From: Echinarachnius parma
Taxonomy: Eukaryota > Echinodermata > Echinoidea > Clypeasteroida > Echinarachniidae
NCBI GenBank assembly: GCA_037951105.1
Contig: JBAMJV010002999.1
Location: forward strand, 1-64,000
DNA length: 64,000 nucleotides
Reading direction: 5' to 3'
The position numbers were made by a program, and so were the translations under genes. The first letter of the stretch is position 1, and every line of letters begins with the position of its first letter. Below are positions 9,788-57,419 of this stretch, piece after piece. Under the pieces are notes generated by a model. It was not told the DNA's origin. It did no database searches and saw only the letters and a list, made by a program, of their open reading frames with translations.

Positions 9788-9862
9788 TCATAATCCAGGC
9801 AGCATTATATCCTTCTCCTTGAGCTCGCCAAACGTTCCCAAGTCATGCATGGTCAAAACTGT
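9788..9862 (-). CDS. Candidate last exon (exon 8) of Rho-ZU5
   Basis: 75 nt after a strong acceptor (tttcttgcag), phase 0, encoding [19 protein letters not shown] and ending MLPGL-stop. The short HDLGTFG stretch is reminiscent of the strand following ZU5 in its families, but this is weak. A tttatt (AATAAA on the minus strand) lies about 200 bp downstream. It could be chance. Confidence 0.5.
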   Translation of the reverse strand, partial: TVLTMHDLGTFGELKEKDIMLPGL

Positions 9863-12800
9863 CTGCAAGAAACACAACCCATTGTGACTTAATATGAATT
9901 AAGCATTGTGCTTCACTTTGCGACTGCAACTTGAATTTAAACAGAATCAAATACTTTGATTGCTTTCATTAAAGGGACTTAGTAATTCATTGTCCAAATC
10001 ATAAAAATCCAATTTGAATTCTAGCGGTTCCCTCATACCTTGTTGTATTCGTATTGACAATAAAATCATGGGACAGGTTTCGGTTTTTCAAATTTCCCTT
10101 TCGTTACAAAGATATGTACGATTGAAGTGTTCAGATAATAAAACTCCGTTGGAGTTTTGAAACCGTGTACAAAGTGAGTGCAGTGAGTTAGTGAATATCA
10201 CTTTGTCTTTTTGCTCATTACTCGGCCATGCAACGTCCATTTGACTTGAAATTTTCACACAATGCCCTGTGGATATATGAGATAACAACAATATGCATTG
10301 CATCAACCATTCATCCCTTTTTGCACATGTCAACAAAGTTACTAGATCCCTTTAAGCTAGCCGAACCCACTATCTAATCATTCTACACTTAATTTTATCT
10401 AATAATTTACCTCGACCAGTTTCACCATAAACCATTTAGTCAGGTGTGCACTTATTTACAAAGCCAATGTTGTTCTTAAAAACTTTCTTTGATCTAGCCT
10501 ACACATTCATAGCCCCAGACCTCAGCACCATAATTATAATAGAATTGGCAAAACTAAATGATCAAATAAATGACACTGTGTATCAACAGATAAATGCACT
10601 GTTTCACAATTGCAATAAATGTATTTAAACACATAAAATGCCATCAACAAATCAAAATGGATGGTAAAACAAACACCATTGTTTCACAAACAATAATCAA
10701 TGCATCATATGTGCAATTTCTTGTGGCTTTTGAAATTGGGTCATTTTGTCCTTTACCTCTGCTCATTCAGCCATAAAAAAGATGAATATCTCTGACCTTC
10801 ACACAAAAAGAACAAAACAGCTGTAACAATATCGTGGTAAGATAACATCTTGAAATAATTATCGGTTATGAAATTATGAGCAGTTGTTTAGGGTGGGGGG
10901 GGGGGGGGGGGGGGAGTAGTTACTTGTGTTCTGTTTATACTACTTAGGTGAGCAATAATAATGGTAATGTGCTTGTCTTGAGGAGCTTAGTACAACACTT
11001 TTACACAAGGCATCATATTACACCTATACGGAGTGGCAATATTCTTTGCAAAATCTGATTGTCACTCGACAACTGCAGTCTGTACCTATAACCACGTGCT
11101 TTCGCTGAACTTGTTCTGTACATCAACACAGTGGGGTATTGTGCTTTGCACATCTTCCTCAAACTTCAGGCCAGCAGGCGTACATTGCACAACGGGTGCC
11201 ACCAGAATCTCATCAGAGGCTTCTGCGGGAATATCGGGGATGGTCCTCGGCACCTGGACTGTGACTACCTGCTCACGTTTTTTCTCCTTGATGGCTCCTG
11301 GCGGTACGACTACGCTGACTTCCCCATCTCCAAATAGTTGTACCTCTCCTCCGAGATGGTCCATTGTTGCACAGGCGAACGAGTCCTCCAAACCACGTGA
11401 TTCCTCCATTTCTAAATATTAGGTGGTATTGAGTCAAATGGAACAGTCAAAATAATTTTAATTTTTCACGAACCTTGCAAAGTTATTGTGCATGTAAAAG
11501 GCTTTTAATAACCCATTTGATTACGATGTTCTTTATATCTTTTTTGGAATATTTGTTATCATAGGCGTAGGAGGCGGGTGGCGTTTTGAAAACGGTCATA
11601 TTATTCCGGCAGCCATGGAGCTACACCTTGTTTTGAGGTATTAAAGGGACTGTCCGCCTTTTGGAAGCCAAATTTCAAAAGTTGTGAGGTTATTGTCTAA
11701 TATGAAAGAGAAAGTAATTTAACAGCATGCCTGAAAACATTAGGGCTTGAAATCTCTTTTTCGTGGAGTTATAGGCCTCAAAATAATAAAAACGACACAG
11801 CGCGTTTAGTATTATTCTAAATCAGTGAAACTCCTTTATTGACCAATGAGAAGTTTGGTGGAGGGGCGCATTCGCTTTTCATTCGTGGAATCCAAATTGC
11901 TGTCTACTGTCTACTGGAAACTGTTCATACGATTTGTAAAAGGCGGAGAGTCCCTTTAAGTCTTTTCTCGACTGATTATGAACGACTGTTCTTGGTAACG
12001 ATTTTCATTGGAAAAGACCCTATCCGATGGACATACTCATTTTATTACTTTATTTTGGTTCCTTTTTTACTGGGCCACCCTGTAGAGCTCACGAATACAA
12101 TTATTTGTAGAGCGCCGTGAATCTAGGTACCCCTATTCAAAAGCGCACACTAATTATCTGGAGCACCATCTCAACTTCCAAGGGAGCATACTAGCCTAAG
12201 CTGCTCTGACTACTTTACAGGAGAACAGCAATGTGGATTAAATTCCTTGTTGAAGCATACTCAATACCTGGGCATCGATTGGGTTCTTACTCGGGTCCCG
12301 TGATTAGAAGGCGCACCTCCGAAAGTGCTACAACTTCCCACGCAGAGGTTTGCAGCACATGGCTCAAGCCATATTATATCTTACTGTACCTAATCATTTA
12401 ATGTGAATGTAACTAACCGTGCGCCGTTCGGGTATCATCCTTGGAAAGACTCGTAACATCTGTACTTGTTAAAGACCCGACGACTGTATTGAGCTCTGCA
12501 TCACTGGGTTGTCCACCACTCTCATCTCTCATCGATGCTTCGTCACTGCCTGATGCATTCATGTCCAGTCTGATAGTAATACATTGTACAATAAATTAAT
12601 ACCTAGTAAATATGTAGTCGTGTTAAAAACAGGTTGGCCCCAACAAAACGAAACGGGGCACTTCACAAAATAAAGTAACAAAATAATTATGTCCATCGTA
12701 TAAGGTAACTTTTCCAATTAAAAACAATACCAATAACAGTAATTTTGGTCGTGTAGTTTTTGTTTAGGGCGCTCTGAGTGACACCATGTCAGGCTCCCAT

Positions 12801-15800
12801 TTTTGCCAATTTTGACCAAGTCAGTGCCAGATAAATCGCACTTACTGCCCGTCATAGCACTGAACAACGAGTGATATGCGCGCTATTGTTAGTGTGCATT
12901 CAGCTGTGCGCCGAGAGAATGTGCATGGTTTTTATGGTATGACGAGCAGTAAGTGCGATTTATCAGGCACTGACTTGGTAAAAAAATACAAATATGGAAA
13001 CCTGACATGGTGTCACTCAGAGTGCCCTAAAGCAAAACATACACGACCAAAATAAATTACTGTTCTTGGTCTCGTTTTCATTGGAAAATATACCCTACCA
13101 GATTGACATAATCATCTTGTTACTATATTTTAGGAAGTGCTCCGTTCCTTTTTTCTTAGAGGGGGCACCCTGTATAATACTACGTTTGATATATACAATC
13201 TCGGCGTTCAGGAATGGCTGAAATATCCGCAAACAAATTAAGTTAATATCAACAGATATGAATTGAAGTGAAAAAAGAATAAAGATATTTTCAAACAAAT
13301 TGCCATAATCTCTTGAAAGACTGCCTACTTAAGAAATGTAAAACAAAATAACATTTACAAATTGTTATTAAAGGGATAGTTTAGTATTGATATAGAGGGC
13401 ACTTCACAAAATATGTTTTGTGAAATAATGAAACACTGACTGTCTTTTTAGAAAAATTTAAAAAAATGCTCGAGGACTACTTTGAAAAATTCTAAATAGG
13501 TCTTTAAAAAGTTGTTGATATATCTATATATCATTATCTAACAAAATATTAAATGCACAATTTTGTATGAAAAATGGGTAAAACCAATGATTTTTTCTAG
13601 AGAGCGCCCTCTTGTGTTGTAACGGCTCTTTTTGAATGATAACAGGGGCTTACTTAGTCGTTTGTAGTTGTGTATACTTTTCGAGCATGGTGGAGTTATA
13701 ACTATTATTTTGTACCGTAATGGTGCAGGTTTTGGTTACTACAGTTAAGTTTGACCAATACTCAACTTTCCATTTAAAAAGGGTTGACTATTCCAGGTGT
13801 CTGAAAGCGCAATCTAGCGTTAATTATGACTGCTATTTAAAAGGATAGTTGAGTTTTGGTATAGAGGGCTATAAACAAATAAGTTTTTGTGAGATAATGA
13901 AAAACATTGAAAATGATAATCATGATAACAGGCGTTTTTCTTAGTAATTTGTGATTTTGTATTCATTTCGAGCATGGTGGAGTTTTAACTATTATTTTGT
14001 CTTGTAATGGTGCAGGTTTTTTTTCTTCTTAAATTCAGTTTGATCAAATTATTGTACACTCTTTACCAAAACTCAACTACCATGACTATCCCTATAAATA
14101 GCAATAGCCTGCGAAATTATAAGGTAAGGTTTCTTCCTGTCATTCAAACATGAACAAAATTAACTATCATTGTGAATGATAACAAACAATAAGCTTTCTT
14201 TCCCTTATACAAATACGTAATGACTTACTGCTTTGGCTCTCTCCTGTGCGATCCTGCTAATTTTGATTTTAGGTTCTGACCACCTGTCCATCTTTACCAT
14301 AAGAAATGGAAATGTATACAAATATAAACAATCAAGAAAAGCACATGTGAACATAACTGTATAACTGTCAATGCGAAATAACTAACACCTGGAATACAAA
14401 ATACAACAGAATGGGGACTGGGCCTGCATTGCAAATTTAGAGAAATTGCTGATAAGTTTTCGTGTTTGTAATGATAACACCGGTTTGTAGAAACCACTTG
14501 GAGTCTGCTCAATTAAAATATGTTTTATGTATCTTTTACAGAGTATATTAATGAGGAAGTAGCGTATGAATAACAAATTGTTATAAACAGCAAAATAATG
14601 TATATATTTGTAACGTTTTGTTTGCCTATTTTACTTCACCGACGCATACGAACTTTTCAGCTTATAATGATTTAGTTGTTTTGGAAGAGTGTATAATGAT
14701 TTGATTTTGATTTTATTTCCATATTTCACAAATAATTTTTGAACATGTAAATATACAAAGAAACAATATATTCGTAAACGAAATACAATACAAATACACA
14801 GAAGACTAACATACAATAAATATTACATAATCAACAATTTGTTTGTAATTAACATTACATGAAATATGAGGGGACCAAAAAGAAGCAAAGCATGTAAAAA
14901 CATTCGGTTCTCAGGGGTAATTGTGTCTAATCAATACTGAAAAAGAAACAATTTAAAGAAAAACAGACAAAAAAAATAAATTTGCGTCTAACTGGCAGTT
15001 TCAACGTTTTTATATGATTTGTATAACGGACATTTACCGCACACACTATTAGATTATTGTAAGATTGTACACCATACTTATGAAACAAGAGGACAAGAAA
15101 ATTCAATGCTACCCTTGCCAATTTGTAAGACGACACAATGTACATTTACTATTTCCTTTGTTGGACCAAAGCTTTGGAATAGCTTACCTCAGAAAATTAG
15201 AGAACAAAAAACAAGATGTTCATTTCGTAAGGCCCTCACAATGTATTTGATGAACAAATATAATGTAAACAATATAATCTTAATATCAAGTATAATGCTT
15301 ATTTTGTAATATAGAGATACACTATCGATATAGTGAAAAGATCTCGAAAAAATCTCGAAAAATCTCGACTAGCACTTGTGCTAAGTGCTAACTTTTGGTT
15401 TTCTTTTAGCAACAACCTTAACTTTTGTATAAATGTGTTTTATAGTATGTAAGCATTGATTAAGTTTTACTAATCTATTGCAGTGATTCATTGTTTTGTA
15501 AATTATGTACAGTTGATGTACATATATATGATATTGTTGTTGTTAATAAACTTCAAACTTCAAACTTCAAAAATAAAAGAACAAGTTAGAGAAGAAAATG
15601 TGCCATTCCAAATACTAAATATTTAGATCACTATAGTCAATAATATTACAAGAATATTACAATCGATCTAACCGAATACAAATAATACAAATAATACAAA
15701 AGTGGAAACTTACTTTATACAAAGAGCGATACAAATATGACGTATATTTTAAACCTTATTTGTATATAATGTAAATTTAAACTAAACAATAGTTATTTTG

Positions 15801-18482
15801 AGTATATAATCAATAATAATGATTTTAATTTATGTATAAATGCAAAGAGGGAGGGGCTTGTAGTAATTTCTTTTGGAAGATCATTCAAAAATTTAGGACC
15901 AGAAAATAAAATTGTTTTGGAGGCAGATAGTGTACGCGTTCGTGGTAAATGGAAGGAACCACTCTGCCGATTGGGGTAAGTAAATGAAAATAATTATTCT
16001 TTTTAAATATCGTCCTAAAACTTTAAGGAAGTTCATTATGGTACTTAATATAATTACATTTTGGTCTTGCATTATTAAATACATTTACACTTTTTAATTG
16101 CTGAATGAAACAGATTTTAGCCTCTTTAAAGTTTATCTCTCATTAATAACTGGTATTTGTTTTGCCTTGCAATAGTACTATTATTATGTTTTAAGGGCTG
16201 GTCCCATTGTATGTCATTATAGTATTTATTGTAATTGTTAATTGTTAATACGTAATTTTACCATCAATGTAAAGCAGTTATATCTTGTTTTTTTTATTTT
16301 TTAATTTTTTTTTCTAGCATTGTTTAATTTGTTATGCTTATTAGTAATATTATATTTTAGTCAATTATTTGGAATTTAAATTTGTCTGTATTATAGTAAA
16401 TCTTGTACTATAGTCATACTTGTATTTATTACCGGAGGAGGTGGTTTAGGCTAGTATTGTTGATTTTTGCAATATTGTTATTTTAAATATGTAATTTGTT
16501 CTACATTATGTACATGTATATGTGCAATATAGATGTTTCCTTATGTTTTACTGACAGTTACTTGTGAGGGCTCGCATGTCTCCGGGCAATAGTAAAGAAT
16601 TTTACTTTTGTGAGGCCTGGCCCACTTGTAACTGTCCCTTTTCTCCCTTTCCTTCACTTTCTTTATTGACTGTTTGTATTTTGTATTTTGCATTTTGTAT
16701 ACTCTGTATCTGTTTGAATTTTGGCCGAATAAATAATAATAATTATTGGATAATTTATAAAAACAAAATACCTCTATTATAAAAAATATAAATCAGTTAG
16801 TTTCAATATTTTATTTGAATAAAATAATCATATTGTGTATAAGCATAAAACCCTTTTTTTAATAAACAATTCTAATAGCTTGTTTTTGTATTTGTACTAG
16901 TTTATCAAGTCATAATAATGTATTATTTCCCCATGCTAAAATTCCATAATACATGTAAGATACCTCCGCCAAAACATCTACACCTCCGAAGGAAAAGAAA
17001 GCCTCCAAGAGGAAGCTGAAGGTAACAATAAAAAAGAGAACCAAGTAAATAACATAAGCAAGAGGATAACAAAAAAGAAGAAGGAAAACAAATAGCGAGA
17101 TAAAAAGGCATGGGTAACGATAAATTAAATTTACACTTTAACTCCCTCAATGTGAGGGAAATTAGAGATAAGCTGAAAAGGAGCAAATTATTGCGATGTC
17201 TGAACAATCAGAAATGCCATATTATTTTATTTCAAGAAACTTTTGTAACAAAAAACATTAAAAATACAATATGCGAAGAATTGAACGGACTTTGTTATTT
17301 TAATAATGGACTCAACCATTCGGAAAGAGTATTAATTTTAGTCAATAATAACTTAACAATGCATTAATTAATTGATTAAAATGTTACTCAAGGGAAGGTG
17401 GCATAGTACTCGCAATTCAATTCTCTGTTCTTGACAAAACATATTTTTGTGGTAATGTGTATGCACCTGCAAAGAACGCAGAGAAAAAAGCTTTTTATAG
17501 ATCACTGAACATATGGGTCAGTAAATATATAGGTCATAATGACATTTTGATATCTGGTGATGATTATAATTGTGTTCAAAATCGTAAAATTTATACCTAT
17601 GGCTTGTCACACGTTTATTTACCAAAATTTTTAAAAAGTTTTTTGAAATAATAATTTGGTTGATGTTTGGAGAAAATTTAACCCAAACAAAAAAAAATTA
17701 CATGGAGGCAAGTCACACTGAAAATATACTCTATGCTTGATTATTGGTTGGTCGCTGCTACTTTTGTACTGTACATAATATTTATTTAGTAGACATACGT
17801 CCAGCACTTAAGTGTGACCACAATGCCATTTCTCTGAAAATTAAAGTCTTTGAAGAGAAGCGTCTCTTATCAATGCATCGTCACTGTCTGATGCATCCAT
17901 GTCTAGTCTGATAGTAATACATTATACATAAATTAATACCTAGTAAATATAGTCTATAGTCGTGTTAAAAACAGGGTGGCCCCCAAAACGAAACGAGGCA
18001 ATTATAAAGTTACACAATTATTATGTCCATCGGATAGGGTGTTTTTTCCAATGAAAAAAAAACATACCAAGAACAGTAATTTTTGTTGAGTGGTATTTTG
18101 TTTTAGGGACTGTGAGTGACACCATGTCAGGTTCCCATTTTGTCAATTTTTACCAAGTCAGTGCCCGATAATTCGCACTCGCGGCCCGTTAATAGCGGAG
18201 CAGTACGCGCGCCATTGTAAGTGTGCAATCAGCTGTGAAACGAAAGAATGGACACATTTGTTCAATGCTATAATGGGCAGTAAGTGCGAATCGTCCGGCA
18301 ATTACTTTGTAAAATTGACAAAATGGGTACTTGACATGGTGTCACTCAGAGCGCCCTAAAGTAAAAACTACACAACCAAAATGACTAGTCTTTGCATCGT
18401 TTTTCATTGGAAAAGACACCCTATCCGATGTTCATCATGTTCATTTTGTTCCTTTATTTTGGGAAGTGCCCCGTTACGGTTT

Positions 18483-18527
<45 letters not shown>

Positions 18528-21500
18528 TTTTTTTTTTTTTTTTTTTTTTGGGGGGGGGGGGGGGGGGGTCCTGAATGTACATGTAATAGTGGTCAAGCGC
18601 CACTCCACGACGCCGTAGTATATCACACTATACATGGTGGCCCCAAAACACTGAGCGGGACACTTCCCAAAATTAGGTTAAAAAATGATTATGTTCATCG
18701 GATAGTGTATTTTTCTAATGAAAAAAGATACCAAGAATAGTAATTTTGGTCGTTTGGTCGTTGTTTGGTCGTTGTTTTAGGACGCTTTGAATGACACCAA
18801 GTCAGGTTCCCTTTTTTTGTCAATTTTTACCAAGCCAATGCTTGATAAATCGCACTTATTGCCCGCCATAGCGTCGTTAGTGTGCATTCGGCTGTATGCC
18901 GAGAAAATGGGCAGAGTTGCTCGATACTATGACGGGCAGGAAGTACGATTTATCAGGCATTGACTTGGTAAAAATGGCAAAAAGGGGAGGCTGACATGGT
19001 CTCACCTAAGACGTCCTGCAACAAAAACTACTCGTCCAAAATCACTGTTCTTGGTATCATTTTTTCATTGGAAAGGACATTCTATCCGCTGGACACAATA
19101 ATTGTGTTACTTTATTTTGGGAAGTGCCCCTTCCGTTTGTTGGGGCCACCCTGTATAGATCGGTTAAACTGTTAGCGGCGAGAACTTAGCAATCAGTTTT
19201 GGCGAGAGAGTATGCGCCGCCTGTGCACCGTATACGTCCATAAATGCACAGTGACGCTGAAAGCTTCCACTAATTCCAATGTTATGCAAGTGTACATGCG
19301 CAGCGTCCTGTATATTTTGCGTTCTGTACATATAGGGATGAGCGTACTGTCGCATAAATAAACGAGATGGATCTTAGACTGCACGCAGTCGAGAATGATG
19401 CCTCCGCCATTTCATAATTTATCAAGTCCAAATTAAAATGCACGGAATTAATTCTTCAACTCAAATGTAATATTAAAAATTACGAGATACAAATAAAATA
19501 TAGGTACCAAGTTTGATGGTTATTTGACAAATAACCATGGTTCTTGAGATATTGCAATTATAAGTTGCATAATGAGTCATGTGATCTTGACCTTTGACCT
19601 CATGAAACCAAAATCTAATGGCTACAGTCGCTTTCTGGGATACATTGAGGTACCAAGTTTGATTGAAATCTGACATTCAGTTCTTGAGATTTTGCAATTA
19701 CAAGCTAATTTAGCATAATTGTTCCCTGCGACCTTTGACGTCATGACCCAAAATATAAACAGTTATTAGTCACCTCAAAATACATACATGTACCAAGTAT
19801 GGTGCAAATCCATTTATCACTTAAGATAACTTAAAGGAGACGTCCGGACGATTTAAAAAAAAATCTACCATAATCTACATAAATCAAAGACCAAAACTAC
19901 CTACTTTTAATCAAAAACACCCTCCAAACCTGTCACAATCGAATTTTTAGTGTCACTAGTTTTGAATCGTAACTGTTCACTTTCTGTACGCTAGCGAGAA
20001 AGATCACATGACGGCGTGATGTATCAGCCTCACTTTGCGCGCGCTACCTCGGTGAAGCGGCTGCTATATTTTGCTTCACTTCGCTTGCTAAAGTGTCAAG
20101 CGTTTGGATGTTCGAATAAGCCAGGCAATGGCCAGAGGCAATGGCCAGAAAAGGATTTTTTTTCGCCATTCCCAACCCAGCAAATGAGAGGGAAAGGTGC
20201 GCTAGATGGCACGCCAACATTGGAATTGACACATTTGACGTCAAAACGTACAAATATTGCAGGAATCGAGTCGTCTGTGAGGATCATTTCGAGCCGAAGT
20301 GAGCGTGAGCGCAAAAAACACAAACTTAGATATCGTCAAATTTCCCGTTGCCCGACTTTTATGTGAAATTTGCAACATCGGAAATGAAAAAAAAAATCTA
20401 GAAAATTGGCCAATGTTAGTGTAAAAGTACATATTTTACCGTATGAGTGGTTATTTTCGCAAAATTATCGACTTGTTTGACAAATTGAGAGACGCAAATT
20501 GAACATGTGCGTCGGAAAAAAACCTGTCAATTGAATGATACGAAACACGCACTAGAAGGTCTGCCAGAGTTTCGGCAGGCCTCGCGCTGCGAGAGAGGTA
20601 GCTAGCTAGCCGCGCGCCAACTGCCTTGCATGCACTCTTAAAAAGTGCCGAAAAGGAACGAAAATGCAAGATTATCACGATCGCACATATTCTAGACTAT
20701 CTCTTATTTTACTTACATGTTTTGCAAGGCTTTTTAAACAAATACGAGAACAATTACCTGCAAAAACGGCAAAACAAATGCGCTGATAATCTCCCGATAA
20801 TTTCCTAACTCGCTTCGGACCAGATGAACTGAACCCAGCGCTCTTTTGTTGCCAATTTGCGAATGGCGTAGACTACGTGTATGATACGCATACTACACGT
20901 TATATGATATCGCAGCCCAGAAATTGGCAACGTTCGCAAACGATCTGATTTTCTGCTATGTTCAATCGCTAAGTGAAAGTCTCGCTCGCGTAACAAGCGC
21001 TTGAGTTTTGAATGTTTTACTTCGGGAAAAGCACCCGATTCACAAAAAGCACACAGTAAACCACCGTAAAAAAAAAAAAAAGGCACACGGTAAAATACTG
21101 AAGGGATGACATCTTCTGTAATCTGATGGATAATCTGTACAGTGATCCTATCCCTAACCCTAACCCTAGCCTAACCCTAACCCCTCAGACGGTACTTTAC
21201 TGAGTACCTCGTCACCCAGGTGATAGGTGACAACATCTAAACAATATATTACCGTGTACTTTTTTGTCATCCCTTCAGTATTTTACCGTGTGCCTTCTGT
21301 GTAATAGGTGGGAAAAGTAATATTTTGCTCAAAACTGAGGTAATCCTGAATGTTCTGTAACTATATTTCCGTAAATATTGTTACATAAATCCAGCAAAGC
21401 ATCAATACTTGTCATTTTATTGCCGTATAAAAAGATGAATTTGAGCGCGAAACACTGCATTTTTGCAGACCGCTTTATGAGATTCGATCGGATAAAGCCG

Positions 21501-24500
21501 CCGCGCAGCAGCAGTCCAGCTGCCTGTGCTGCGCTGGCGGGCGGCCGGACGACCGCGGGCTGCAAATTTTGCGGCAGATGGCTGATGAAAGTGAGGTTGC
21601 TACGTCATGCGCAATGCATCCTGGGACAGATTCTACTCGAGGCTGCTCGCGGCCGATTCGAACAAGAAGAATTACCTTATTTTTTCGAAAACTGATTGTG
21701 AATGATTCTGATGGTCTTTTCTCATCGGGAAAAAGGTTATAGACTCCTAAAATATTGTACTTTCCCCTGGAAACTGCTGAAAATCGTCCGGACGTCCCCT
21801 TTAAGATAACCCGATCAATAGCTATTTTTGCACATATAATGGGCCCTGTATATAACCTTTTATCTTTGACCTAAAGACCCCAAAATCTGATCAGTTCATT
21901 GGCGCCCCAAGATACATACATGGAATAGGTTTGGCGAGAATCTGTCAATCGGTTCTTGAGATAACGCGATCACGATAACGGGACGTACGGACGTACGGAC
22001 GTACGGACAGCGGACGGACAACCCGAAAACATAATGCCTCCGGCTACTTCGTGTCGTTGCGGAGGCATAAAGACATCCCTCACAGTGCGAACCGTACATA
22101 ATTATGCGTGATTCACTCATCTAACAGTTGTCACGTGATATGGATTAGAGCACAATATGGATTTAGAGGCCACCCATTACCAATACATTGGTTATGCAGA
22201 AATCAGTATGCGTATAGACGGAAAATTACCGTGATAATTTTGCTAAGAATGGGTTCCGTTTGGGTGGTTTCGGTGGAAGTGTAGCGATGATTGCTTCGTC
22301 AAAAACTTCCCTTACGCCTTCCTCGAGTTGAAACAAAATGTGGAATGGAATGAACAATGATATTATATGAAAAAAGACAAGATAGCAAATACATGGTTTT
22401 GGGGCAAATATATATGATATTCACAAATATTTGCAATGACATCGTCAGTAAATACAACAAAAACAAAACTCGAACAGCTTAATCACTTTAGCCGCCCCCC
22501 CCCCCCCCCCCCCATAATAAACTTAAATTACCTACATTTGTATCAAATAGCCAAATTAATAGAGCTATTATTGTTTCTTCTATTTTTCTGATTATTGACC
22601 TTATTTCTGTCTTTATTCCTTTCTTATTTCTTACCAGTTTCTAAAGCACCTGAAACACAAATCAAATCGACTGGTATGGCAATTGAGCATAATTTTTAGC
22701 TCTGGCACAAATCCAAACAAAGGTTAAAAGAAGCACGGGAATTTCTCTGGAGAAATTGGGAGATACTAGAAATAGCGATCAAACCGGTCAAAGTTCAAAT
22801 ATGAATATTCCTATAGCCAGTCTAATGGACCAGGCCATTTGACCAATTTAACATCTCTTCCCCTATTTAATCGGTGTCAAAATCGATACGAAAGAGCAAG
22901 CGTAAAATGGGTGGTACAGTTTTGATAAGGCTGAGCTTTAGTAACCAAAACCTGCACAATAACACTACAAACTAGTAGTTATAACTGATATTCCAGTCGT
23001 TTCTGAACCGATTTTGATCAAATAAAGTTTATTCTGCCATTAAAATGGTATGCTCTTTCAAATTAAACAATCAGTTTTTCATTATCTCACACAAAAATGA
23101 TTTTGTGCAGCGCCCTCTATACCAAAACTGAACTATCCATAAACCATGGAATATATTTCTGCTCAATCTGACAGAATCCATGATCATGAAAATTGATCTA
23201 ATTAAAAATATACATACTCTCGTCCGTGCGGAGCATTCGAGGTATTTGACTGCGTGGACTCGATGTGCAAGTTGTTTCCCTTGTTCCACAGTGATTGGCC
23301 TCTGTTTGTTTCTCTTCAACTGGTCAAGTGTCTCGGGATCTTTTCGTAAGTCAGCGTTGGTACCTACAATCAGGAACAGTGTTCCCGGGCAGTGGTGTTG
23401 GATTTCCGGTATCCACTTTCATTATTTAAAGAAGAATCAAGTAAATACTAAATACTGTAATACAATATTGCTCAATTTACAGAACGTACATTCCAGTTTC
23501 AATGCGTCAAAGTTTTTCTTTCAAATAAATATGAATAGTAATTAATTATAATTAAAAGCAATATAATTGCAAAAACACTGATGGAAAGACAACAAGAGAA
23601 TAAGCAGTTATCTTACCGACTTGTAATCGACTTTATGAAGTTATGATTCCTAATAGATACCCTATAACAGACCGAAATACACAGTTCGTCACAAATGTCA
23701 CAAATGAGTTCCAAAAGAAGTTCTCGCATTATTATATTAATCGTTTATTCAGTCACATTTATATTATAGCCTTGAAGTCTGGGGAAGTGCCCATATACTG
23801 TTAATGAACAGAACAATGATGTTACAAAAGATGGCCTTGAGAGCAATGGCCTCATCCGCTCCACTGTTTTTTTTCATTAGGTATATACAAATATATAAAT
23901 TGTTAGTAACAACTTTTATTTGTAAGTCAATTCATAGATGCTTACCACACTCAGTGCTTGCATAGTCGTAGTATAGTTTACCTTCATTGAAATTTATTAT
24001 AGTACAAGACAAAAAGACGGATTTTGTTGATCATTACTACAAGATGAGAACAGAGCATGGACAAACTTTAATCTCGTTTCATGGATTAGATATTTGGAAT
24101 AGTATGCCATTGGAGATACGAAGACTTGATAGACTCCACCTTATTAAGATTAGTCTTAAAAGTAGTTATTAAGTTAATGTGTATTATAGTTCTTTGAAAT
24201 AGCATATAGTTAAGTTGTTATTGGTGGGTGAATGTCCACTATTATAAATACAATAGTATTGCATGTTTATTCAATCGTAGTTTCTTGCCTTATTCAAATG
24301 TAAATATATTAACTATCCATGTACAAAGGGTCCTATATGCCCCACTAGTAATAGTTGCTATTTATGTAGGGTCCTTTTAACAATTTGTTTGTTTGTTAGC
24401 ATTTCCTATATATAATTGTTATCTTGTTTTCTTTGAACATATAAAGTTATCAATTCATTCATTCATATTAATTGAAAGATTGGCATTACATTGCACTTTG

Positions 24501-27141
24501 TTCCCTCCGTACTGCTTGGTTTTATGGGCGCCGTACATATGACTGCGGTTTTCTTATTGGTGAATATGCCTACCTTCTCCGTTATATTTTCAAACGAAGT
24601 CGGCCACACGACTGAAAAGAGGACAAGGAAGACATCAGCCTGTGGGTAGCTTGAAGGTCGTAGTCGCTGGTAGCACTCGTTTCCTGAACATCAAAAGAGG
24701 ACCAACGTCATAACATTATGGTTCATGATAATTCATGACAAAGATTTCAATTATTCAAACATAAACAGGAACTTTTCATTCAAAATTATTGTTTTTCTTT
24801 GGTGGCCCTATCGACAACAACAACATAATGGAAACCTACGAGAAGAAAATACATAATGTGTGGTGCCCCCCCCCCCCCCGATTATTTAGGTGCCTACCCC
24901 ACCCGAAATATTCCGACCACGCTATATTCCACTATACCAAAACAGAATGGATCTTCGACTGCGCGCAGTCGAAAATTATGCCTCCGCTATGACGCGATTT
25001 TGATATCAAGCCCAAAATATGAACCTGCACTTAATTAATTTTTAAATATATTTTTCATATATCTTGATTCCTGTGACCTTGACCATAATTATGACCCCAA
25101 ACTGAGATGGCTAGATTGGCTTCCTAAGAAACATTCAGGTATCAAGTTTGATTAAAATCTGACATTTAGTTCTTGAGATTTTGCCATTACAAGCTTTTTT
25201 GCATGTATAATGAGTCCTATGACCTTGACCTCAACCTGATTACCCCAACATTTTATGGCTACATTGACTCTTTATGATACATTCAGGTACCAAGTCTGAT
25301 TGAAATCTGACATTCAGTTCTTGAAATTTTGCCATTACAATCCATTTTTGCATATACATGTATATTGAGTCGTGTGACCTTGACCTTTGACCTCATGACC
25401 CCCAAATCTACTCAGATCATTGCCACCCCGATATGAACACTCATACCAAGTTTGAAATTAATCCATCAACCGGTGTGTGAGAAAGATGCATTATTAAACA
25501 TATGTTGAGTCCTGTGACCTTGACCTTTGACCTCATGACTCCAAAATCTAATCAGATCATTGGCACCCATGAACCAAGTTTGGTGAGAATCCGTCAATCA
25601 GTTCTTAAGATAACGCGATCACAAGTCTGCAATGCGTAATGTCACTGGACCCTTCATCTTGATGCCTTTCCAGAGGACTTTGCATTCAATTGGCTAGCCC
25701 TGCAACAGAGGGTAATTCAATGCGATGCCAAGAGTCACTTTTTTTTTGCAACTTTTTAACAACTGGCCAGATTGAATATTTTTTGAATAATTGGTTTTCA
25801 TGGATCAATAAATGGAAGACCAAATTGTGCTCGTTTTTCATTTTTTAAATATCAAATGAGTACTATTTACCACATGTATCCCATAGGCCAAGCGTGTATG
25901 GTTCTCCGCCGATCATTGCTGTAATTACCTCATAATTGTCAAAAACCTATGATTCAAGACAGAGATAAGTCGATAATTACTAGTTAATATTACAGGATTA
26001 ACGGCTAACGCAAAATGTCATGGCCGAGGCTTAGCTTCTTGTTGTTGAATACTGAATTGTAGTAGAAATAAAAAATAATAATCTGCCAAATAGATGAATA
26101 ATTTGTCAACTGAACAAAAATAAGACAATTATGTTTAGAAGCAGAATTCTTAAGTGAGATAACTGTTTACAAGTACATTGACTCCTCTGTTGCTGCCTTT
26201 TTGATGGCTCGGTTATATGAATGCTGATAAACAAATTGTCACGTACAAACATCTGAACTGGATGATCAACTTTTACCTTCAGTTTAAGCATGTTCCCTTT
26301 CAAATAAAATAATACATTTTTGGCCAAGAGGATCTACAGGCCTACGAGTAAAATTTAAAATAAATTAAACAAATAGAACGCCTGCTTCGTCGGAGCGTTA
26401 CATCAATAATGTCTCGTGGTTTCATATGAAACCACAGACCCAGGGCCAGGACCATATATATTCTGATATGTTAGGATAATTTTGGCAAAAAGTTCCAGTC
26501 TATTAGTCTTTTATAGACACATTTGTGACTATTAATATTTAACATTCGAAATAACAGGTTTGAATTTCTCCTTCCGACAATGTATACATATCTTTGAATA
26601 CTAAGATTGTTGTAAAATCAAAAGTAACGGCCTTTTTTATTATTATATTTCACATGGAAGTAACAGATTTGTTAGCTTCTACTGGAAACTTTTTTGTATC
26701 CCTGAGCGCCCAAAATTGCTCACAAATCCCTATATGGACATGTTATCAAGTTTGTTCATATATCGTCATGCACATTATTTAATTACAGTAAAAAAAAAAT
26801 TGTCTTAGCGGCCACATGTCTATAGTAGCCAATCTACGTACAGTGGGCGCTGCAGAGAAAATAAATATTATGGAGCATGTCTATAGACAGAGGCTTCTTT
26901 TTATGTTGCCCTTGAGTGGTCACTACAAACAGGTCTGAGTGTACTCTTATGGTTGGCACATATTCAACTGGAATTATTGTGTATCCAATAACTAGTACTC
27001 GTACTCACTGTTGGTAGTAAATGTTCAGTCGGAAAACTCCCTGTTGTAAACGTGGTGATCATCACGGTTTTCCCGACACAAGGGTCCCCAACAACCACGC
27101 ATTTGATTGTCTGCATCTTACTCTATATATGCTGCAGTTTT
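9788..27141 (-). CDS. Rho-family GTPase fused to a ZU5 domain (8-exon model)
   Basis: Eight exons, each bounded by AG/GT and with matching phases, give about 366 residues: GTPase (1-194), linker (~195-246), ZU5 (~250-340), short tail. The GTPase has all Rho signatures in order: P-loop GDPCVGKT, switch [28 protein letters not shown] (which leads into the Rho insert) and ECSA. Rho GTPases switch between GDP and GTP states to control actin and polarity. ZU5 is an adaptor or autoprocessing domain in UNC5, ankyrin and PIDD. The start ATG is chosen because an in-frame TAG lies just upstream and the first residues [11 protein letters not shown] match Cdc42. A good acceptor at 27141 implies a non-coding first exon upstream. 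There is no CaaX box; the ORF splices onward into the linker where other Rho proteins end. Introns are full of transposons. Function is inferred: an atypical, probably GTPase-poor Rho adaptor. Confidence 0.85.
9970..10354. mobile_element. MITE-B copy
   Basis: Begins ttaaagggacttagtaa and ends ttactagatccctttaa; about 385 bp. Lies 108 bp upstream (minus-strand sense) of candidate exon 8. Confidence 0.82.
10895..10914. repeat. G20 homopolymer
   Basis: Uninterrupted G run in the intron between exons 7 and 8. Confidence 0.9.
11122..11411 (-). CDS. Rho-ZU5 exon 7: ZU5 domain
   Basis: The ORF shows the ZU5 pattern: [19 protein letters not shown] followed by PPGAI, then [19 protein letters not shown] and a closing IPHC. 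The acceptor aatatttag gives the phase needed for exon 6. The 3' end is uncertain. Donor GAT|gtacag at 11122 gives phase 0 and joins exon 8. Without splicing the frame reads 12 codons more (NKFSESTWL region) to a TAG ending at 11086. The domain is near full length in either case. Confidence 0.85.
11641..11959. mobile_element. MITE-D copy
   Basis: Inverted ends: ttaaagggactgtccgcctt and aaaggcggagagtcccttta. About 320 bp. A half copy lies at 42855-42998. Confidence 0.8.
11981..12088. mobile_element. MITE-C right-end fragment
   Basis: Contains cttggtaacgattttcattgg and ends gggccaccctgtag, like the right halves of the copies at 12629 and 18632. Confidence 0.7.
12418..12569 (-). CDS. Rho-ZU5 exon 6: acidic Ser/Thr-rich linker
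   Basis: 152 nt (1 + 50 codons + 1). The sequence begins [16 protein letters not shown] and ends [10 protein letters not shown]; it is rich in Ser, Thr, Asp and Glu and probably disordered. Acceptor ctatcag and donor gttagt fit. Phases match exon 5 (2) and exon 7 (1). It lies almost 10 kb from exon 5. A partial copy of this exon and its upstream intron is found at 17869-17907. Confidence 0.75.
12629..13173. mobile_element. MITE-C copy 1 with a large internal hairpin
   Basis: Ends read aggttggccccaacaaaacg and gggggcaccctgt. The middle folds: gataaatcgcacttactgcc near 12832 pairs with agcagtaagtgcgatttatc near 12947. No ORF. Confidence 0.8.
13368..13778 (-). mobile_element. MITE-A copy, reverse orientation
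   Basis: Starts ttaaagggatagtttagtat; carries gagcgccctcttgtgtt and gagcatggtggagttataac, then tggtgcaggttttggttact, the complements of MITE-A blocks. Confidence 0.75.
13837..14093 (-). mobile_element. MITE-A short internal-deletion copy
   Basis: Ends aaaaggatagttgagttttgg and accaaaactcaactaccat, about 255 bp. Most of the interior is lost. Confidence 0.7.
15003..15575 (+). mobile_element. LINE 3' end with (CTTCAAA)n tail
   Basis: 15019-15309 reads [24 protein letters not shown] and [18 protein letters not shown], the common C-terminal end of LINE RTs. The element closes with aataaacttcaaacttcaaa, a heptamer tail. Confidence 0.75.
15840..16790 (+). other. AT-rich region, possible LINE 3' UTR
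   Basis: Ends in ccgaataaataataataatt, which resembles a LINE tail. The short ORF at 16564 has no recognised domain. Origin uncertain. Confidence 0.3.
17107..17868 (+). mobile_element. Tx1/L1-type LINE endonuclease fragment
   Basis: Reads [30 protein letters not shown], then in other frames [25 protein letters not shown] and [13 protein letters not shown], the APE endonuclease motifs in order. Several frameshifts. Its right end abuts the duplicated exon 6 piece. Confidence 0.75.
17841..17907 (-). pseudogene. Partial copy of Rho-ZU5 exon 6
   Basis: The acceptor (ctatcag) and about 15 codons ([15 protein letters not shown]) copy the start of exon 6, together with at least 60 bp of the flanking intron and then a MITE-C. 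The copy is cut near 17869 by LINE sequence. After the cut the frame reads a few codons to TAA at 17841. If used as an alternative terminal exon it would give a GTPase without ZU5; more likely it is a dead duplicate. Confidence 0.6.
17869..18480. repeat. Duplicated segment: exon 6 start, intron and MITE-C copy 2
   Basis: 17869-17970 matches 12522-12629 (exon 6 start plus intron). The MITE-C follows at once in both places (here aggggtggcccccaaaacg-like start). The right end of the MITE runs into a low-complexity array. Confidence 0.75.
18484..18568. repeat. (TTG)n, T25 and G19 runs
   Basis: Trinucleotide array followed by T and G homopolymers; the length may be unreliable. Confidence 0.9.
18632..19156. 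mobile_element. MITE-C copy 3
   Basis: Starts catggtggccccaaaacact and ends tggggccaccctgtatag. It has the same internal hairpin (gataaatcgcacttattgcc and gcaggaagtacgatttatca). Confidence 0.78.
19360..19830. repeat. Repeat family F, left half (split by the THAP element)
   Basis: Contains agactgcacgcagtcgagaa, tgatgcctccgcc and units like ggtaccaagtttgattgaaa plus gaccttgacctttgacc-type sequence. It continues at 21803 after the insertion. An unsplit relative lies at 24945-25640. Confidence 0.75.
20085..20305 (+). pseudogene. THAP zinc-finger domain, frameshifted
   Basis: Reads [13 protein letters not shown] up to a T run at 20157-20163. There the frame must change to continue as [20 protein letters not shown], then [13 protein letters not shown] and a stop. 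The C2-C-H zinc ligands (CQAFGC and CEDH) are present, so the domain is near complete. THAP binds DNA in P-type transposases and related host factors. Confidence 0.8.
21081..21295. mobile_element. Small nested inverted-repeat element
   Basis: aggcacacggtaaaatactg and its complement agtattttaccgtgtgcct close a ~215-bp unit inside the THAP element; about 29 bp are near perfect. Confidence 0.75.
21149..21184. repeat. Interstitial telomere-like repeat
   Basis: About five CCCTAA-type units (tccctaaccctaaccctag and on) within the nested element. Confidence 0.85.
21803..22075. repeat. Repeat family F, right half
   Basis: Resumes aagataacccgatc and ends with cgtacggacgtacggacgta and tgcctccggctacttcgtg, then gttgcggaggcata. 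Short cggacgta tandem units. Confidence 0.7.
22230..22321 (-). CDS. Rho-ZU5 exon 5: last helix of the GTPase and splice into the tail
   Basis: 92 nt starting [15 protein letters not shown], the last helix of a Rho GTPase, then a proline/basic stretch PPKPPKRNP in place of the usual polybasic region. There is no CaaX box. The reading frame would stop one codon after the donor (ACG|gtaatt). Splicing in phase 2 instead joins exon 6, whose single leading base completes Arg. Confidence 0.85.
22495..22513. repeat. C19 homopolymer
   Basis: Uninterrupted C run. Confidence 0.9.
22908..23139 (+). mobile_element. MITE-A internal-deletion copy
   Basis: Both ends present (gtggtacagttttgataagg; ataccaaaactgaactatcc), about 230 bp. 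Lies just downstream of Rho-ZU5 exon 4. Confidence 0.75.
23218..23415 (-). CDS. Rho-ZU5 exon 4: G4 motif, Rho insert, G5 motif
   Basis: 198 nt, 66 codons, phase 0 on both sides. It starts [19 protein letters not shown], continues [19 protein letters not shown] (G4 Asp present, then the Rho-specific insert region) and ends [11 protein letters not shown] with the G5 SA pair. Donor gtatgt. The exon boundary before W matches the usual Cdc42 junction. Confidence 0.9.
23720..24480 (+). mobile_element. LINE C-terminal and 3' end
   Basis: Reads [13 protein letters not shown], then [37 protein letters not shown]; 3' end with (ATTC)n near 24455. Same family as 4060-5075. Confidence 0.75.
24574..24683 (-). 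CDS. Rho-ZU5 exon 3: switch II
   Basis: 110 nt, entering with two bases that complete Gly, then [18 protein letters not shown] and [18 protein letters not shown], donor gtaggc. It is typical of Rho switch II and the following helix. Asn stands at the place of the catalytic Gln61 of Rac/Cdc42, and Cys/Gln replace the acidic pair of the QEDYDRLRP consensus. Confidence 0.87.
24866..24879. repeat. C14 homopolymer
   Basis: C run interrupting an otherwise unassigned stretch. Confidence 0.85.
24945..25640. repeat. Repeat family F, uninterrupted copy
   Basis: Starts cttcgactgcgcgcagtcga and tatgcctccgc, followed by about five diverged ~125-bp units of the form tgtgaccttgacctttgacc, tcatgacc, aatctaatcag, accaagtttgattgaaatct, gttcttgagatttt. 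Each full unit carries TGACCTTTGACCT, a DR1-type nuclear receptor half-site pair. Confidence 0.8.
25871..25946 (-). CDS. Rho-ZU5 exon 2: switch I and DTxG
   Basis: 76 nt, phase 0 to phase 1. It encodes [19 protein letters not shown] followed by GLWDTC and the first base of the next Gly. It matches Cdc42/Rac over the effector loop and second beta strand. The donor is gtaaat. Cys replaces the Ala of DTAG. It is too short to appear as a long ORF and was found by looking for the missing exon. Confidence 0.87.
25947..27008. other. Intron 1 of Rho-ZU5, no further exon seen
   Basis: AT-rich sequence without a recognisable element. The minus ORF 26106-26327 was tested as a GTPase exon and does not fit. 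Confidence 0.5.
27009..27141 (-). CDS. Rho-ZU5 exon 1: P-loop and switch I start
   Basis: Coding part 27009-27116, 36 codons, starting [17 protein letters not shown] and ending FPTEHLLPT before a consensus donor (gtgagt). The acceptor at 27142-27149 has a pyrimidine tract, so the exon carries about 25 nt of 5' UTR containing an in-frame TAG. Lys and Thr of the GKT motif are present. The usual Gly at position 12 is Pro and position 13 is Cys. The segment before PT has one residue more than Cdc42 (HLL instead of YV), inside the effector loop. Confidence 0.88.
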
Positions 27142-27283
27142 CTGAAAAGGGAAAATGTAACACGATAATCATTGGTACGTGTCAATTGATTAAAGGTAGG
27201 TGATTGGGGCCTCCCCAAAGAATTGACAAAACATTTAAACCATGTAACTAAATAGACATTAAGTGAACCCTACTGATCTATTA

Positions 27284-27518
<235 letters not shown>

Positions 27519-27539
27519 CGTTGTTCACGAAATCATTGA

Positions 27540-34859: not shown

Positions 34860-36140
34860 CAAGCAGAAACATGGTGATTGGCAATACATGCTTTAAAAAA
34901 CCAAAGGACAGATATTGGACATGGGAAAGTCCTAATGCAGCAACCCATAATATGATTGATTACATCATTACGGACCACAAGAGAATATTGATGGATGTAG
35001 AGGTTATACCGAAGGTCGACACAGGCAGTGACAATAGATTTGTTAGAGCAAAAGTAAGGATCAACAAGAAGATGGAAAGGATAAGAAGAATGAAAATATC
35101 AAGGAAAAGACATATTGACTTGGGAAAGCTTTCAGAAAAACAACACCAATTCTAACTTGAATTAGAGAACAGATTCTCACTTCTAGAAGACTTTGTTGGC
35201 GATGAGCCACTTGATGATGCATTTGAACAAGTAACAAGTACGATTATGGAGGAAGCAGAGAAGCTAGCTAAAGGTAAAAAAGAGATAGTAAACACAAACA
35301 ATAGCAGCGCGGAAGATATTCGAAAAATGAATGAAAAGAGAAAAGCTCTCAAACCCTTCAGACAGACATCTGCACAAAACCAGATCGAGTATACAGAACT
35401 AAACAAGACAATCCGCAAGATGAGAAGGCAGCAAAAGAGACAAAACAGGACCAAGATGGTGAAAGAGGTGCTGGAAAGCAATAAAGGGCCCAAAATCATC
35501 AATAAAAACTGGAGGGAGGAAAAAAAGCTCTTATCATCACTGAAAACAAAAGATGGGACAGAAGTTAACGACAAAGACAAAATCACAGAAACCATTGAGG
35601 AATTCTATAGAGAACTGTATGATACGGATAGACCAGATTGGAGAACAGAAGAAAATTGGAATGAAAAAGCGGACAGTGTACCACCCATTGAGAAAGACGA
35701 AGTGCAGAAAGCTCTAGATCACATGAAGAAAGGAAAGGCTCCTGGAGAGGACCAGTTAACCGCTCACACTTTGAAGTTGGGAGGAAAGAGTACTGTCGAC
35801 ATCTTGACAAAATTGTTCAACAGGATCCTTCAACTGGAACAAGTTCCTACTCAGTGGAATGAATCTAAAGTTATTATACTGTTCAAAAAAGGAGATACAA
35901 AAGACATAAAGAATTATAGACCCATTAGTTTACTACCTCACATGTACAAGGTTTTCACAAAAATTATTCTTGCAAGAATCCAAAGACAGCTAGATGAAAA
36001 TCAGCCAAGAGAACAGACAGGCTTTCGAGCAGGATTCAGAACATCAGACCATCTACACACTTTAAGTCAGATCATTGAAAAGGCGAAGGAATATCGTTTG
36101 GACATTTGTCTTGGATTCGTAGATTACGAGAAAGGTTAAA
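34860..36140 (+). mobile_element. RTE-type LINE fragment (endonuclease end and RT start)
   Basis: Reads RYWTWESPNAATHNMIDYII, then after one stop (35155) a long frame with KGKAPGEDQLTAHTLK, NYRPISLLPHMYKVF, DENQPREQTGFRAGF and CLGFVDYEKG, closely matching RTE/BovB-type RT up to the motif where AFD would follow. It is truncated there by a stop and unrelated sequence, so the catalytic part is missing. Confidence 0.82.
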
Positions 36141-47900: not shown

Positions 47901-47971
47901 TAAGTAAATTCAAACATAGAGAAAACTGACTAGAAATATTTTTAAATGATTGAAAATGAGCAAAGAAAAAA

Positions 47972-51447: not shown

Positions 51448-52237
51448 CTACGTGAACATACAGAAATTATTCCAAGTCGGACTTGGGCACAGGCAACATA
51501 TCTTAGACCATCCGGTACGGCCGTGTACCTCTTCACTTTCCGTGCCTCCATCAAGTTCGGAGACGATTGGTATCATCCCCTCGTCACGACAGCTCTCTGT
51601 GTCTTTTGTATCTGGTTCTATATGATTTTCCTCATTTTTCGTGCCCCCTCCATCAAGTCCGGAGACGATTGGTATCCTCTCCTCGCCACGACAGCTCTCT
51701 GTATATTTTCTATCTGGTTCTATCTGATGTTCCTCATTTTCCGTGGCCCCTCCATCAAGTCCAGAGACAATTGGTTCCCTCTTCTCTACATCACAGCTCT
51801 CTGTATTTTTTTTATCTTGTTCTATCTGGGGATTTTCATTTTCCGTGCCTCCTCCTCTAAGTTTGGAGACAACTGGCACGCTCTCCTCGCCACCACAGCC
51901 CTCTGGATCTTTCCCAAAGCAAGGTTTCTTGTTATACGAATATTTCTCTGCGAGCTCGACTAGTCCTGATTGTTCCAGAGCTGCGCGCAACAGGTCGAGC
52001 CGTCTATCACCGCTTACATCGCTGTGTTGCGTCCACCAATAGTACAGCATGTGGAACGTGCCGATGTACGTCATACAAGGCCCTCTCTCATTGGAATGTT
52101 GGCAACGATAGATCCGTGATACCTTGAGCTTAAGCGCTAGGCCCAGGTTGAACACCCGGTGGTACGGGATTTCGTCTGCTAACTCGGAAAGGATACGCTC
52201 TTCCGTAGAGGTCAAGTCCACACTCGCAATGCTGGTA
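51448..52237 (-). CDS. Death-domain exon with four 34-residue repeats
   Basis: An exon with acceptor ttttcag before 52237 (one leading base, so the previous exon ends in phase 2) encodes a Death domain: ERILSELADEIPYHRVFNLG, LKLKVSRIYRC, MLYYWWTQHSDVSGD, LLRAALEQSGLVELAEK. This is the six-helix Death pattern with Trp in the fifth-helix region. It is followed by four 34-residue repeats (102-bp period) with a core like PIVSGLDGG and TESC, then a Cys-rich end and a stop at 51448. A donor (GAG|gtacac) at about 51525 is possible, so the true end is uncertain. Death domains recruit other Death proteins in apoptosis and innate immune signalling. The preceding exons were not found. A long plus-strand ORF here is its antisense shadow. 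Confidence 0.8.
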
Positions 52238-55549: not shown

Positions 55550-56560
55550 CAGAAGTCGGAAACATGGATACATACCTGTATTGAGGTTCATGTGCAGGCT
55601 CTGAAATATAAGTCAGCGGAAATTAAGAATATTATATATACAGTGATCCGGAATTTAAAGAACGGAGTATGCGGAGAAAGGGATTGGGGCGAAATATACC
55701 TGGATTCCGGAAGGCCCCAGCATGTGACAAACTAAAATTGATTCCCTACTCACATTATGCAATAAAACTGTTAGCATTATGTTCATAATGTGCTCATTAT
55801 AAACAAATTATCATAGAGCATGTACTTTCCATTCAAGGCAGTTGTAACTAAATGTGGTCAGTGTAACGGGTGATAAGGTCTCCCAAGCAGAACATACACA
55901 CCGGACAGATTGCGTCGGCGTTCGGTGTCCCCTTCGGCGGGAGTCATCCGAGGAGACGACCCACCACTTGATAGCACAATTTTACTCGGAAATAATGGGC
56001 CTCTATGGTTGTCAATATTTCAACATACAAAACTCAATTGATCCGTATTGTTGAAATAGTATGTAAAAAGTGAAGGAATATCAGTTAAAACACTGTATGC
56101 AAGCCGCTGACATTGGGCCTAAATTCACCGCCAGTTCACCCAGTCTACGCGCGCCCCTTCTATACGCTCGTTCGCATGCGAATTACCACTTGTCGCATTT
56201 GCCATAGGTTTTGCACTCGAGCGCACGAGGGTGGTAATAAATTACAACCGTCGGCGATATAGAAGTGCATTGTTAGTTTTTTACTTTGGCATTATATCAA
56301 TTTTTAGGCGGTTTCCTAGCCAAATTGTTATCATCCCATAACAGTGAAAAGTATATCCTTTAACATGGTTGGTAATACGAGTGTACATTACTGTCATTTA
56401 CCTTTAAGATTGTCTTGTTTGTCAACAATTTGTATCAAGTGAAAATATCCCCTTTTCGATATTGCATATCATTGCTACATGTCATTGTGTGGATTAAAGT
56501 TAATATTCATCAGATGTGAGGAAGTATAATATACACATTGTATTTAAAACGAACAGTACA
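55550..56560. other. No gene recognised
   Basis: Intron of the unknown gene; no element identified. Confidence 0.5.
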
Positions 56561-56576
56561 ATTTTAGAACATTCAC

Positions 56577-56760
56577 CTTTTATTTCCACTTCAAAACGGT
56601 GTGTTTTAGTAGTTGACGAACCCTGGCTCAAGTTCAACGTGATGTTCCTGCCTTTGTGTTTTTTCTTTGTGAAGTCCAGCTCAAAATCCACCTTATTCCG
56701 TTCAAATTTGATGAGACTGTTGTAAGAAACCTTTGGAACGAGGATAATACAGGGACAGGA
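56577..56760 (-). CDS. Unknown gene, penultimate exon
   Basis: 184 nt, 61 codons plus one base, acceptor aaaatatag and donor gtgaat. It begins SCPCIILVPKVSYNSLIKFE and ends TKTHRFEVEIK. Alternating hydrophobic and charged residues suggest beta strands. Phases agree with the exons on both sides, which supports the model. The family is not recognised. Confidence 0.6.
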
Positions 56761-57076: not shown

Positions 57077-57202
57077 CTTTTCAGAAAACTTGTTGTTGCC
57101 ATCCTTGCATTTAATTACGAGATCTTTTCCAGATGGCGCGACACAGTAATCAAAAGGTTGGTCCGCTGGGCACATGGGTTTCTTGAGATCCAACAAGTCC
57201 TT
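57077..57202 (-). CDS. Unknown gene, internal exon (Cys-containing)
   Basis: 126 nt, 42 codons, phase 0 at both ends, acceptor gacttcag and donor gttaga. It begins KDLLDLKKPMCPADQPFDYC and ends KCKDGNNKFSEK, with three cysteines. It joins the next exon in frame. The family is not recognised. Upstream exons lie beyond 57202 and were not identified. Confidence 0.6.
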
Positions 57203-57419
57203 CTGAAGTCTCTGTCATTCCCATAGATGGGACAATAAGTTTTATGAAATGGTTAGCACACCGAATTGCATTGAATCGCCATGTAATTTTTTTGTATTGT
57301 TTTTTTTACTGATATTATCGATATCAACACGATTATACACGATATCAAAACAATATACGCGATATATCGGGAATCGATACCGATATCATGTTTACATCGT
57401 CTGCGCGGGGCCATCAAAA

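Follow-up and report, generated by a model that had tools for sequence, protein, structure and literature searches.

Genomic copies predict that a gene family in Echinarachnius parma encodes a Cdc42-derived Rho domain joined in frame to a ZU5 domain, and at the level of the family this fusion is well supported. The family probably represents PIDD-like autoproteolytic death adaptors that carry a degenerate Cdc42 in front. We found seven copies (A to G), two of them in the window (i.e., the whole stretch of 64,000 nucleotides that was analyzed), where copy A is truncated. If this reading is true, a multi-domain Rho protein would be coupled to the autoproteolytic death-adaptor module found in PIDD and in two inflammasome proteins, CARD8 and NLRP1, and a common signaling gene would have been captured by exon joining, with its CaaX-coding end lost in favor of a splice donor.

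Copy A and its 3′ end

On the minus strand, a splice model predicts that copy A (27116 to 11089) consists of seven exons (E1 to E7) forming a 1059-base open frame of 353 aa, which encodes, in this order, a Cdc42-derived Rho domain without a CaaX end, a 50-aa linker, and a ZU5 domain. E1 to E6 end at GT donors and E2 to E7 begin at AG acceptors, with junction phases 0, 1, 0, 0, 2, and 1. The exons and the evidence for each are as follows:

27009..27116, minus strand: exon 1, start codon and P-loop GDPCVGKT; splice model, Pfam Ras, counterpart exon in copies B and D
25871..25946, minus strand: exon 2, switch I region (VFDNY) to WDTC; splice model, copy D exon 83% identical
24574..24683, minus strand: exon 3, switch II region; splice model, Pfam Ras
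23218..23415, minus strand: exon 4, GTNADL motif and Rho insert region; splice model, Pfam Ras, Cdc42 alignment
22230..22321, minus strand: exon 5, last Rho helix without CaaX, ending at the donor CG/GTAATT; donor position the same in copies A, B, D, E, F, and G
12418..12569, minus strand: exon 6, acidic Ser-rich linker; 61 to 80% identical to copies B, D, E, F, and G and 98% to copy C
11089..11411, minus strand: exon 7, first part of ZU5, followed by a TAG stop (11088-11086); Pfam ZU5 (62.7 bits), donor lost relative to five other copies

In a Pfam scan of six open frames, which included E1, E3, E4, and E7 but not E2, E5, or E6 singly, Ras matched the frames of E1, E3, and E4, and ZU5 matched the E7 frame well above its cut-off of 21 bits. 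Residues 1-187 align to residues 1-185 of Cdc42 (1grn; E 8.8e-78), and the Rho insert between G4 and G5 aligns free of gaps to the Cdc42 segment DPSTIEKLAKNKQKPIT.

A sequence-only reading of this locus, which named no strand, had described five Rho exons, a linker, and a ZU5 exon, followed by a last exon at 9862-9788. The splice model on the minus strand and the Pfam matches bear out the first seven exons but not the last one, which we rejected upon comparison with copy C, because all but 15 of its bases (minus strand) fall inside an insert specific to copy A. This 1002-base stretch (9803..10804) is absent from copy C, the closest copy, with which copy A shares blocks at about 95% identity, and it carries a high-copy repeat of about 387 bases (about 9969-10355), present in at least 39 copies at 93 to 96% identity (40 of 8133 candidates scored). 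Likewise, the series of phases proposed in that reading (0, 1, 0, 0, 2, 1, 0) agrees with ours at the first six junctions, whereas the final phase-0 junction falls away at the TAG codon that closes the ZU5 frame. In copies A and C, the frame stops at TAG where the others carry the E7 end and its donor. The donor bases of copies B, D, E, F, and G are absent from copy A, and so is the last part of ZU5. None of E8 to E12 was detected in the 11 kb to the left of copy A, which also lacks the HFS motif found in other copies and, as far as this search reached, a Death-like domain. Copy A is a 3′-truncated derivative without cleavage site or Death domain; it would at best be a decoy or inhibitor and is possibly a decaying gene.

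Just upstream of copy A exon 1, an integrase core match occurs at 28221-28676 (plus strand), and a long trinucleotide repeat (about 27270-27520) lies between the two. Elsewhere on the same contig (C2998), we noted an orphan Rho exon 1 (GDACVGKT; C2998:121947-122054) with an upstream flank 95% similar to the one that precedes exon 1 in copy A; exon-by-exon scanning detected no following exon before copy B.

Family copies and the junction between the Rho and ZU5 exons

Used as a genome query, the Rho part yielded at least 54 exon matches. Exon-by-exon scans of the neighborhoods around genome matches then delimited the other family copies:

Copy B, this contig (C2998), 105264 to 51448, minus strand: E1 to E12, of which E9 to E12 lie inside the window
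Copy C, C2998, 136418-134940: E6 and E7 only, with the contig end 5.6 kb upstream of the copy
Copy D, C10158, 11664 to 41737: E1 to E12
Copy E, C4906: E3 to E8 and E12
Copy F, C6017: E4 to E10 and E12, with E2 and E3 seen just as 13- and 17-aa hits
Copy G, C6017: E3, E5 to E8, and E12

The E8-E12 interval of copies E and G and the region upstream of E3 in copy E were left out of these scans. A genome query with the family E6-E7 sequence (150 of 397 candidates scored) returned seven ZU5 rows at 80 to 92%, which are the seven copies, along with 5 linker rows at 78 to 90%; the 138 other rows stood at 29 to 39%. Among the matches listed, compared by eye, only C2998, C10158, C4906, and C6017 carry both Rho and ZU5 matches.

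The Rho exons, the linker exon, and the ZU5 exon occur in the same order and on the same strand in six genomic copies (A, B, D, E, F, and G). In all six, E5 runs into a GTAATT donor instead of a CaaX-coding end, and the codon split at the E5/E6 junction continues in phase into the linker exon in copies A, B, and D. Splicing from the Rho part into the linker is therefore favored, since the exon 5 donor is conserved and the split codon is completed. The earlier claims that the Rho fold ends without a CaaX box and that its fifth exon is spliced, in matching phase, into a linker and then a ZU5 domain are upheld by this donor, by the alignment to Cdc42, by the agreeing phases in copy A, and by the shared exon order. 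Inspection by eye placed the linker and ZU5 acceptors of copies E, F, and G where A, B, and D have theirs. Copies A, B, D, and F also agree in the position of the linker donor, while splicing in E and G would have to use an upstream GT in phase 1. A rough expectation for chance Rho-ZU5 exon pairs, computed from chosen round numbers (12 Cdc42-like exons, 150 ZU5 exons, and 40 kb), was 0.06 versus the six copies observed. Judging from these genomic copies, the Rho-linker-ZU5 arrangement is not the product of chance.

The full-length gene and its relation to known adaptors

Copy D is open through 12 exons that encode 673 aa, with junction phases 0, 1, 0, 0, 2, 1, 1, 0, 0, 1, and 2. The predicted product consists of a Cdc42-derived Rho domain that has a degenerate nucleotide site and lacks a lipid anchor, followed by the acidic linker, a ZU5 domain closing with the HFS motif, the UPA-like stretch, and the Death-like domain. 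The ZU5 exon in copies B, D, E, F, and G extends some 15 codons to a phase-1 donor. Comparison of the copies indicated that E8 encodes the end of ZU5 with the motif HFSWFGV and that it is followed by E9, E10, the microexon E11, and E12, the last of which lies downstream on the same strand in B, D, E, F, and G. Exon order and strand were established by sequence, as were the phases in copies A, B, and D. The 3′ exons of copy B fall within the window:

57077..57211, minus strand: copy B exon 9, first part of the UPA-like stretch; 46% identical to copy D
56577..56730, minus strand: copy B exon 10, second part of the UPA-like stretch; 59% identical to copy D
55576..55600, minus strand: copy B exon 11, 25-base microexon
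51448..52237, minus strand: copy B exon 12, Death-like domain and C-terminal tail

Pfam matched copy D with Ras (151.9 bits) and ZU5 (66.4 bits; cut-off, 21), and the family ZU5 also matches the structures of ZO-1 and UNC5B (3g5b; E 1.7e-5 for the latter). The HFS motif at the ZU5 end is present in 5 of the 5 copies that have exon 8. For the stretch that follows, the name UPA-like reflects position and order alone, as Pfam gave no UPA match in copy D and the PDB profile search stopped at ZU5. The Death-like exon was matched by Pfam Death in four of six family members, weakly in each single case (best E 0.01). Eight more distant exons of this genome, each retrieved with E12, reached E 2e-15 or better when aligned within a small database; Pfam Death matched six of these eight, one of them above the cut-off. 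A profile built from these 14 exons (6 from the family and 8 distant) retrieved 16 PDB chains up to E 10 (best E 0.007), of which 14 belong to Fas, THOC1, PIDD, RIPK1, or TNFR1 and 2 to a Cas fusion protein; the THOC1 part matched by the profile is presumably its death domain. A Death domain is thus predicted at the end of the gene, weakly from single exons and more clearly from the profile and the relatives.

Death-like exons are numerous genome-wide (150 of 480 candidates scored), and two pairs of them (C6017:104748 and C3720:92680; C10158:41342 and C2350:186331) have equal or near-equal scores, as if haplotypes remained uncollapsed in the assembly. The mitochondrial cox1 gives an open frame when TGA is translated as Trp, and its end appears to be echinoderm-like. 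The tail of copy B after the Death-like domain (51448-51910, minus strand) is built from about four imperfect repeats, each some 34 aa long, with the motif ESC..EE..PIVSGLDGG.TENEE.QIEPD.

Among known proteins, PIDD1 (LRR, two ZU5, UPA, Death) is reminiscent of the family in that ZU5, the HFS motif, the UPA position, and the Death-like domain follow in PIDD1's order, and PIDD death-domain chains are among the PDB matches of the 14-exon profile. Unlike PIDD1, the family has a single ZU5 and carries an N-terminal Rho domain and an acidic linker in place of leucine-rich repeats; the frames of copies A, B, and D begin with Rho at the Met used by Cdc42. The idea, put forward in the sequence-only reading, that a Rho module stands in for the LRR part fits the full-length copy D, although that reading missed the UPA-like and Death-like parts and did not see the 3′ truncation of copy A. 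UNC5CL has the domain order ZU5-UPA-Death. UNC5 and UNC5CL share this order with the family, the ZU5 of which matches the UNC5B structure as noted above, but Pfam found neither the extracellular Ig and TSP domains of UNC5 receptors nor a membrane part in the 673 aa of copy D. According to the accessible part of PMC3210808, UNC5B has Leu in place of the Phe of the cleavage motif. CARD8 and NLRP1 (ZU5-UPA-CARD, FIIND) resemble the family in their ZU5-UPA order and in a cleavage-type motif at the ZU5 end, which is SF/S in these proteins in that same portion of PMC3210808 and HF/S here; they differ in that the family has a Death-like domain where CARD stands and Rho as the N terminus.

On the Rho side, the family shares with Cdc42 its sequence and intron positions, and with RhoBTB and Miro an atypical, multi-domain makeup, except that its partner domains are ZU5 and Death. 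In the portions available, two Rho surveys mention RhoBTB and Miro as the Rho forms that carry additional domains; the words ZU5 and death domain occur in neither text. A literature search of titles and abstract starts found no Rho-ZU5 protein, and a literal phrase search was likewise empty. Compared with 5.8 billion proteins, the 353-aa model gave top matches that scored far above Cdc42. They were rejected as Rho-ZU5 relatives, as a Pfam analysis of 20 of them gave two Ras-type stretches but not a single ZU5. The ZU5 part alone gave 97 candidates among public proteins, none of them at E 1e-3. Both searches covered proteins of about 194 to 618 aa, a range shorter than the 673-aa copy D. With the family alignment as query, the best 120 listed of 7980 scored proteins (the candidates sharing most words) included none with a precomputed ZU5.

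Cdc42 origin, constraint, and alternative explanations

The genome's own Cdc42 gene (C2195), which ends in KRRRCMLL, has its introns at places common to the family Rho exons. In a maximum-likelihood tree of 16 rows, copies A, B, and D group together (98/99) inside the Cdc42 group (91/97). Because of these shared introns and this tree placement, we regard the Rho part as a Cdc42 copy in which a splice donor has replaced the CaaX-coding end. With respect to the Cdc42 P-loop (GDGAVGKT) and in Cdc42 numbering, copy A has G12P, A13C, and Q61N, copy B has G12D and A13D, and copy D has A13D and K16Q, with Gln61 kept in the last two. An intact catalytic P-loop together with Gln61 was therefore found in none of the three, and a C-terminal CaaX in none of the six copies that have the exon 5 donor in its place. 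Since the P-loops differ in every copy with E1, these changes suggest that the Rho domain is likely not a working switch. A related set on C1455, C9309, and C9628, contigs without a Rho match among the matches listed, stands at 46 to 49% in E8 and 38 to 39% in E12, which suggests that it comprises kin of the fusion's other parent. The genome ZU5 set is very large, with at least 150 ZU5 exon matches (150 of 427 candidates scored); contigs C594, C2907, C4786, and C7975 have many each.

We propose that the family arose when a duplicate of the five-exon Cdc42 gene, deprived of its CaaX-coding end, came to be spliced onto a ZU5-Death gene, itself probably drawn from the large ZU5 set of this genome. 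As described in the accessible part of PMC3210808, PIDD undergoes self-cleavage at HF/S immediately behind its ZU5 domains and CARD8 and NLRP1 do so at SF/S, with the CARD8 fragments remaining together. By analogy with these three proteins, the family ZU5 domain would cut itself at HF/S, and the Rho-ZU5 N-terminal fragment would remain bound and restrain the UPA-Death fragment. If the N-terminal fragment were lost or rearranged, the Death domain would be free to nucleate a signaling complex. Hardly able to cycle, the Rho domain would provide a surface for binding or sensing instead of a switch.

The alternative that survives best holds that the whole family is decaying, with copy A as a dying pseudogene, which we consider a doubtful but serious reading; for copy A alone, the odds of a dying pseudogene are about even. 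Copies A and C have both lost the E7 donor and E8 to E12; to the left of copy C, the search for these exons gave nothing beyond a possible E10 relic of 21 aa (C2998:130273-130211; E 0.003 versus 0.12 for the best reversed-sequence control). In this assembly, E8 is frame shifted in copies B and F. Exons or borders are also missing or altered in E, F, and G: no E4 was detected in the gap-free 6.2 kb between E3 and E5 of copy G, no E1 appeared in the 8.5 kb searched at copy F, and the usual E6 donor position of copy E is not GT, a phase-1 GTATCT lying upstream. Pairwise dN/dS values were 0.53 to 0.71 for the Rho exons of A, B, and D (D without E1), 0.41 to 0.95 for E7, and 0.62 to 1.49 for E6, whereby relaxed constraint is possible, since the values are high across exon groups and pairs (0.41 to 1.49). 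Copies A and C differ in E6-E7 by 9 nonsynonymous changes and 1 synonymous change, and lineage counts over 186 Rho codons (synonymous/nonsynonymous) were 12/25 for A, 9.5/20.5 for B, and 3/10 for D. However, copy D keeps an open frame across its 12 exons until the Death-like part ends, being the sole copy found in this state while the others are damaged or incomplete; none of the seven exons of copy A is interrupted, their borders are good as far as E7, and the small shifts may be assembly errors. Just past the Death part, the copy D tail is in a different frame from that of copy B.

It is unlikely that a Cdc42 copy and a ZU5-Death gene are simply two neighbors copied as one block and never transcribed jointly. 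The large introns (9.7 kb from E5 to E6 in copy A), the decayed P-loops, and the spread of copies as blocks, such as those shared by A and C, are compatible with this explanation, and an in-frame ATG, which five of six copies have at linker codon 13, might serve as the start of a separate ZU5 protein. Nonetheless, two neighbors would hardly account for an E5 that runs without CaaX into a donor at the same place in six of six copies, for a split codon that in A, B, and D carries on in phase into the linker exon, or for Rho exons that in these copies remain open between GT-AG borders with the dN/dS values given above.

Within the death-adaptor reading, a further and rather improbable possibility is that of an integrated decoy, in which the dead Cdc42 copy would be bait for agents that attack Rho GTPases and the family would act as intracellular sentinels. 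Attack on the bait fragment or its removal would release the self-cleaved UPA-Death half; compare CARD8, which in the accessible part of PMC9213247 is activated by breakdown of its N-terminal fragment. An arms race would then be reflected in the fast protein change, the copy-specific P-loop lesions, and the tandem duplication, and copy A and other truncated members would be regulators that bind without signaling. The family would offer a natural system for asking whether dead Rho copies act as guards or decoys in invertebrate immunity. Finally, the Rho exons might be an optional start of a ZU5-Death gene that usually has another N terminus, as ZU5 exons lie mostly on contigs without a Rho match (four contigs have both, by eye among the matches listed), but the E5-E6-E7 borders kept in six copies favor regular use and leave this an improbable alternative.

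Other elements in the window include endonuclease and reverse transcriptase matches of LINE-type appearance (1029-3280 and 35246-37038, both on the plus strand). Two tRNA matches on the minus strand (47971-48043 and 48257-48329) lie 0.3 kb apart with similar flanks and are possibly tRNA-derived repeats.
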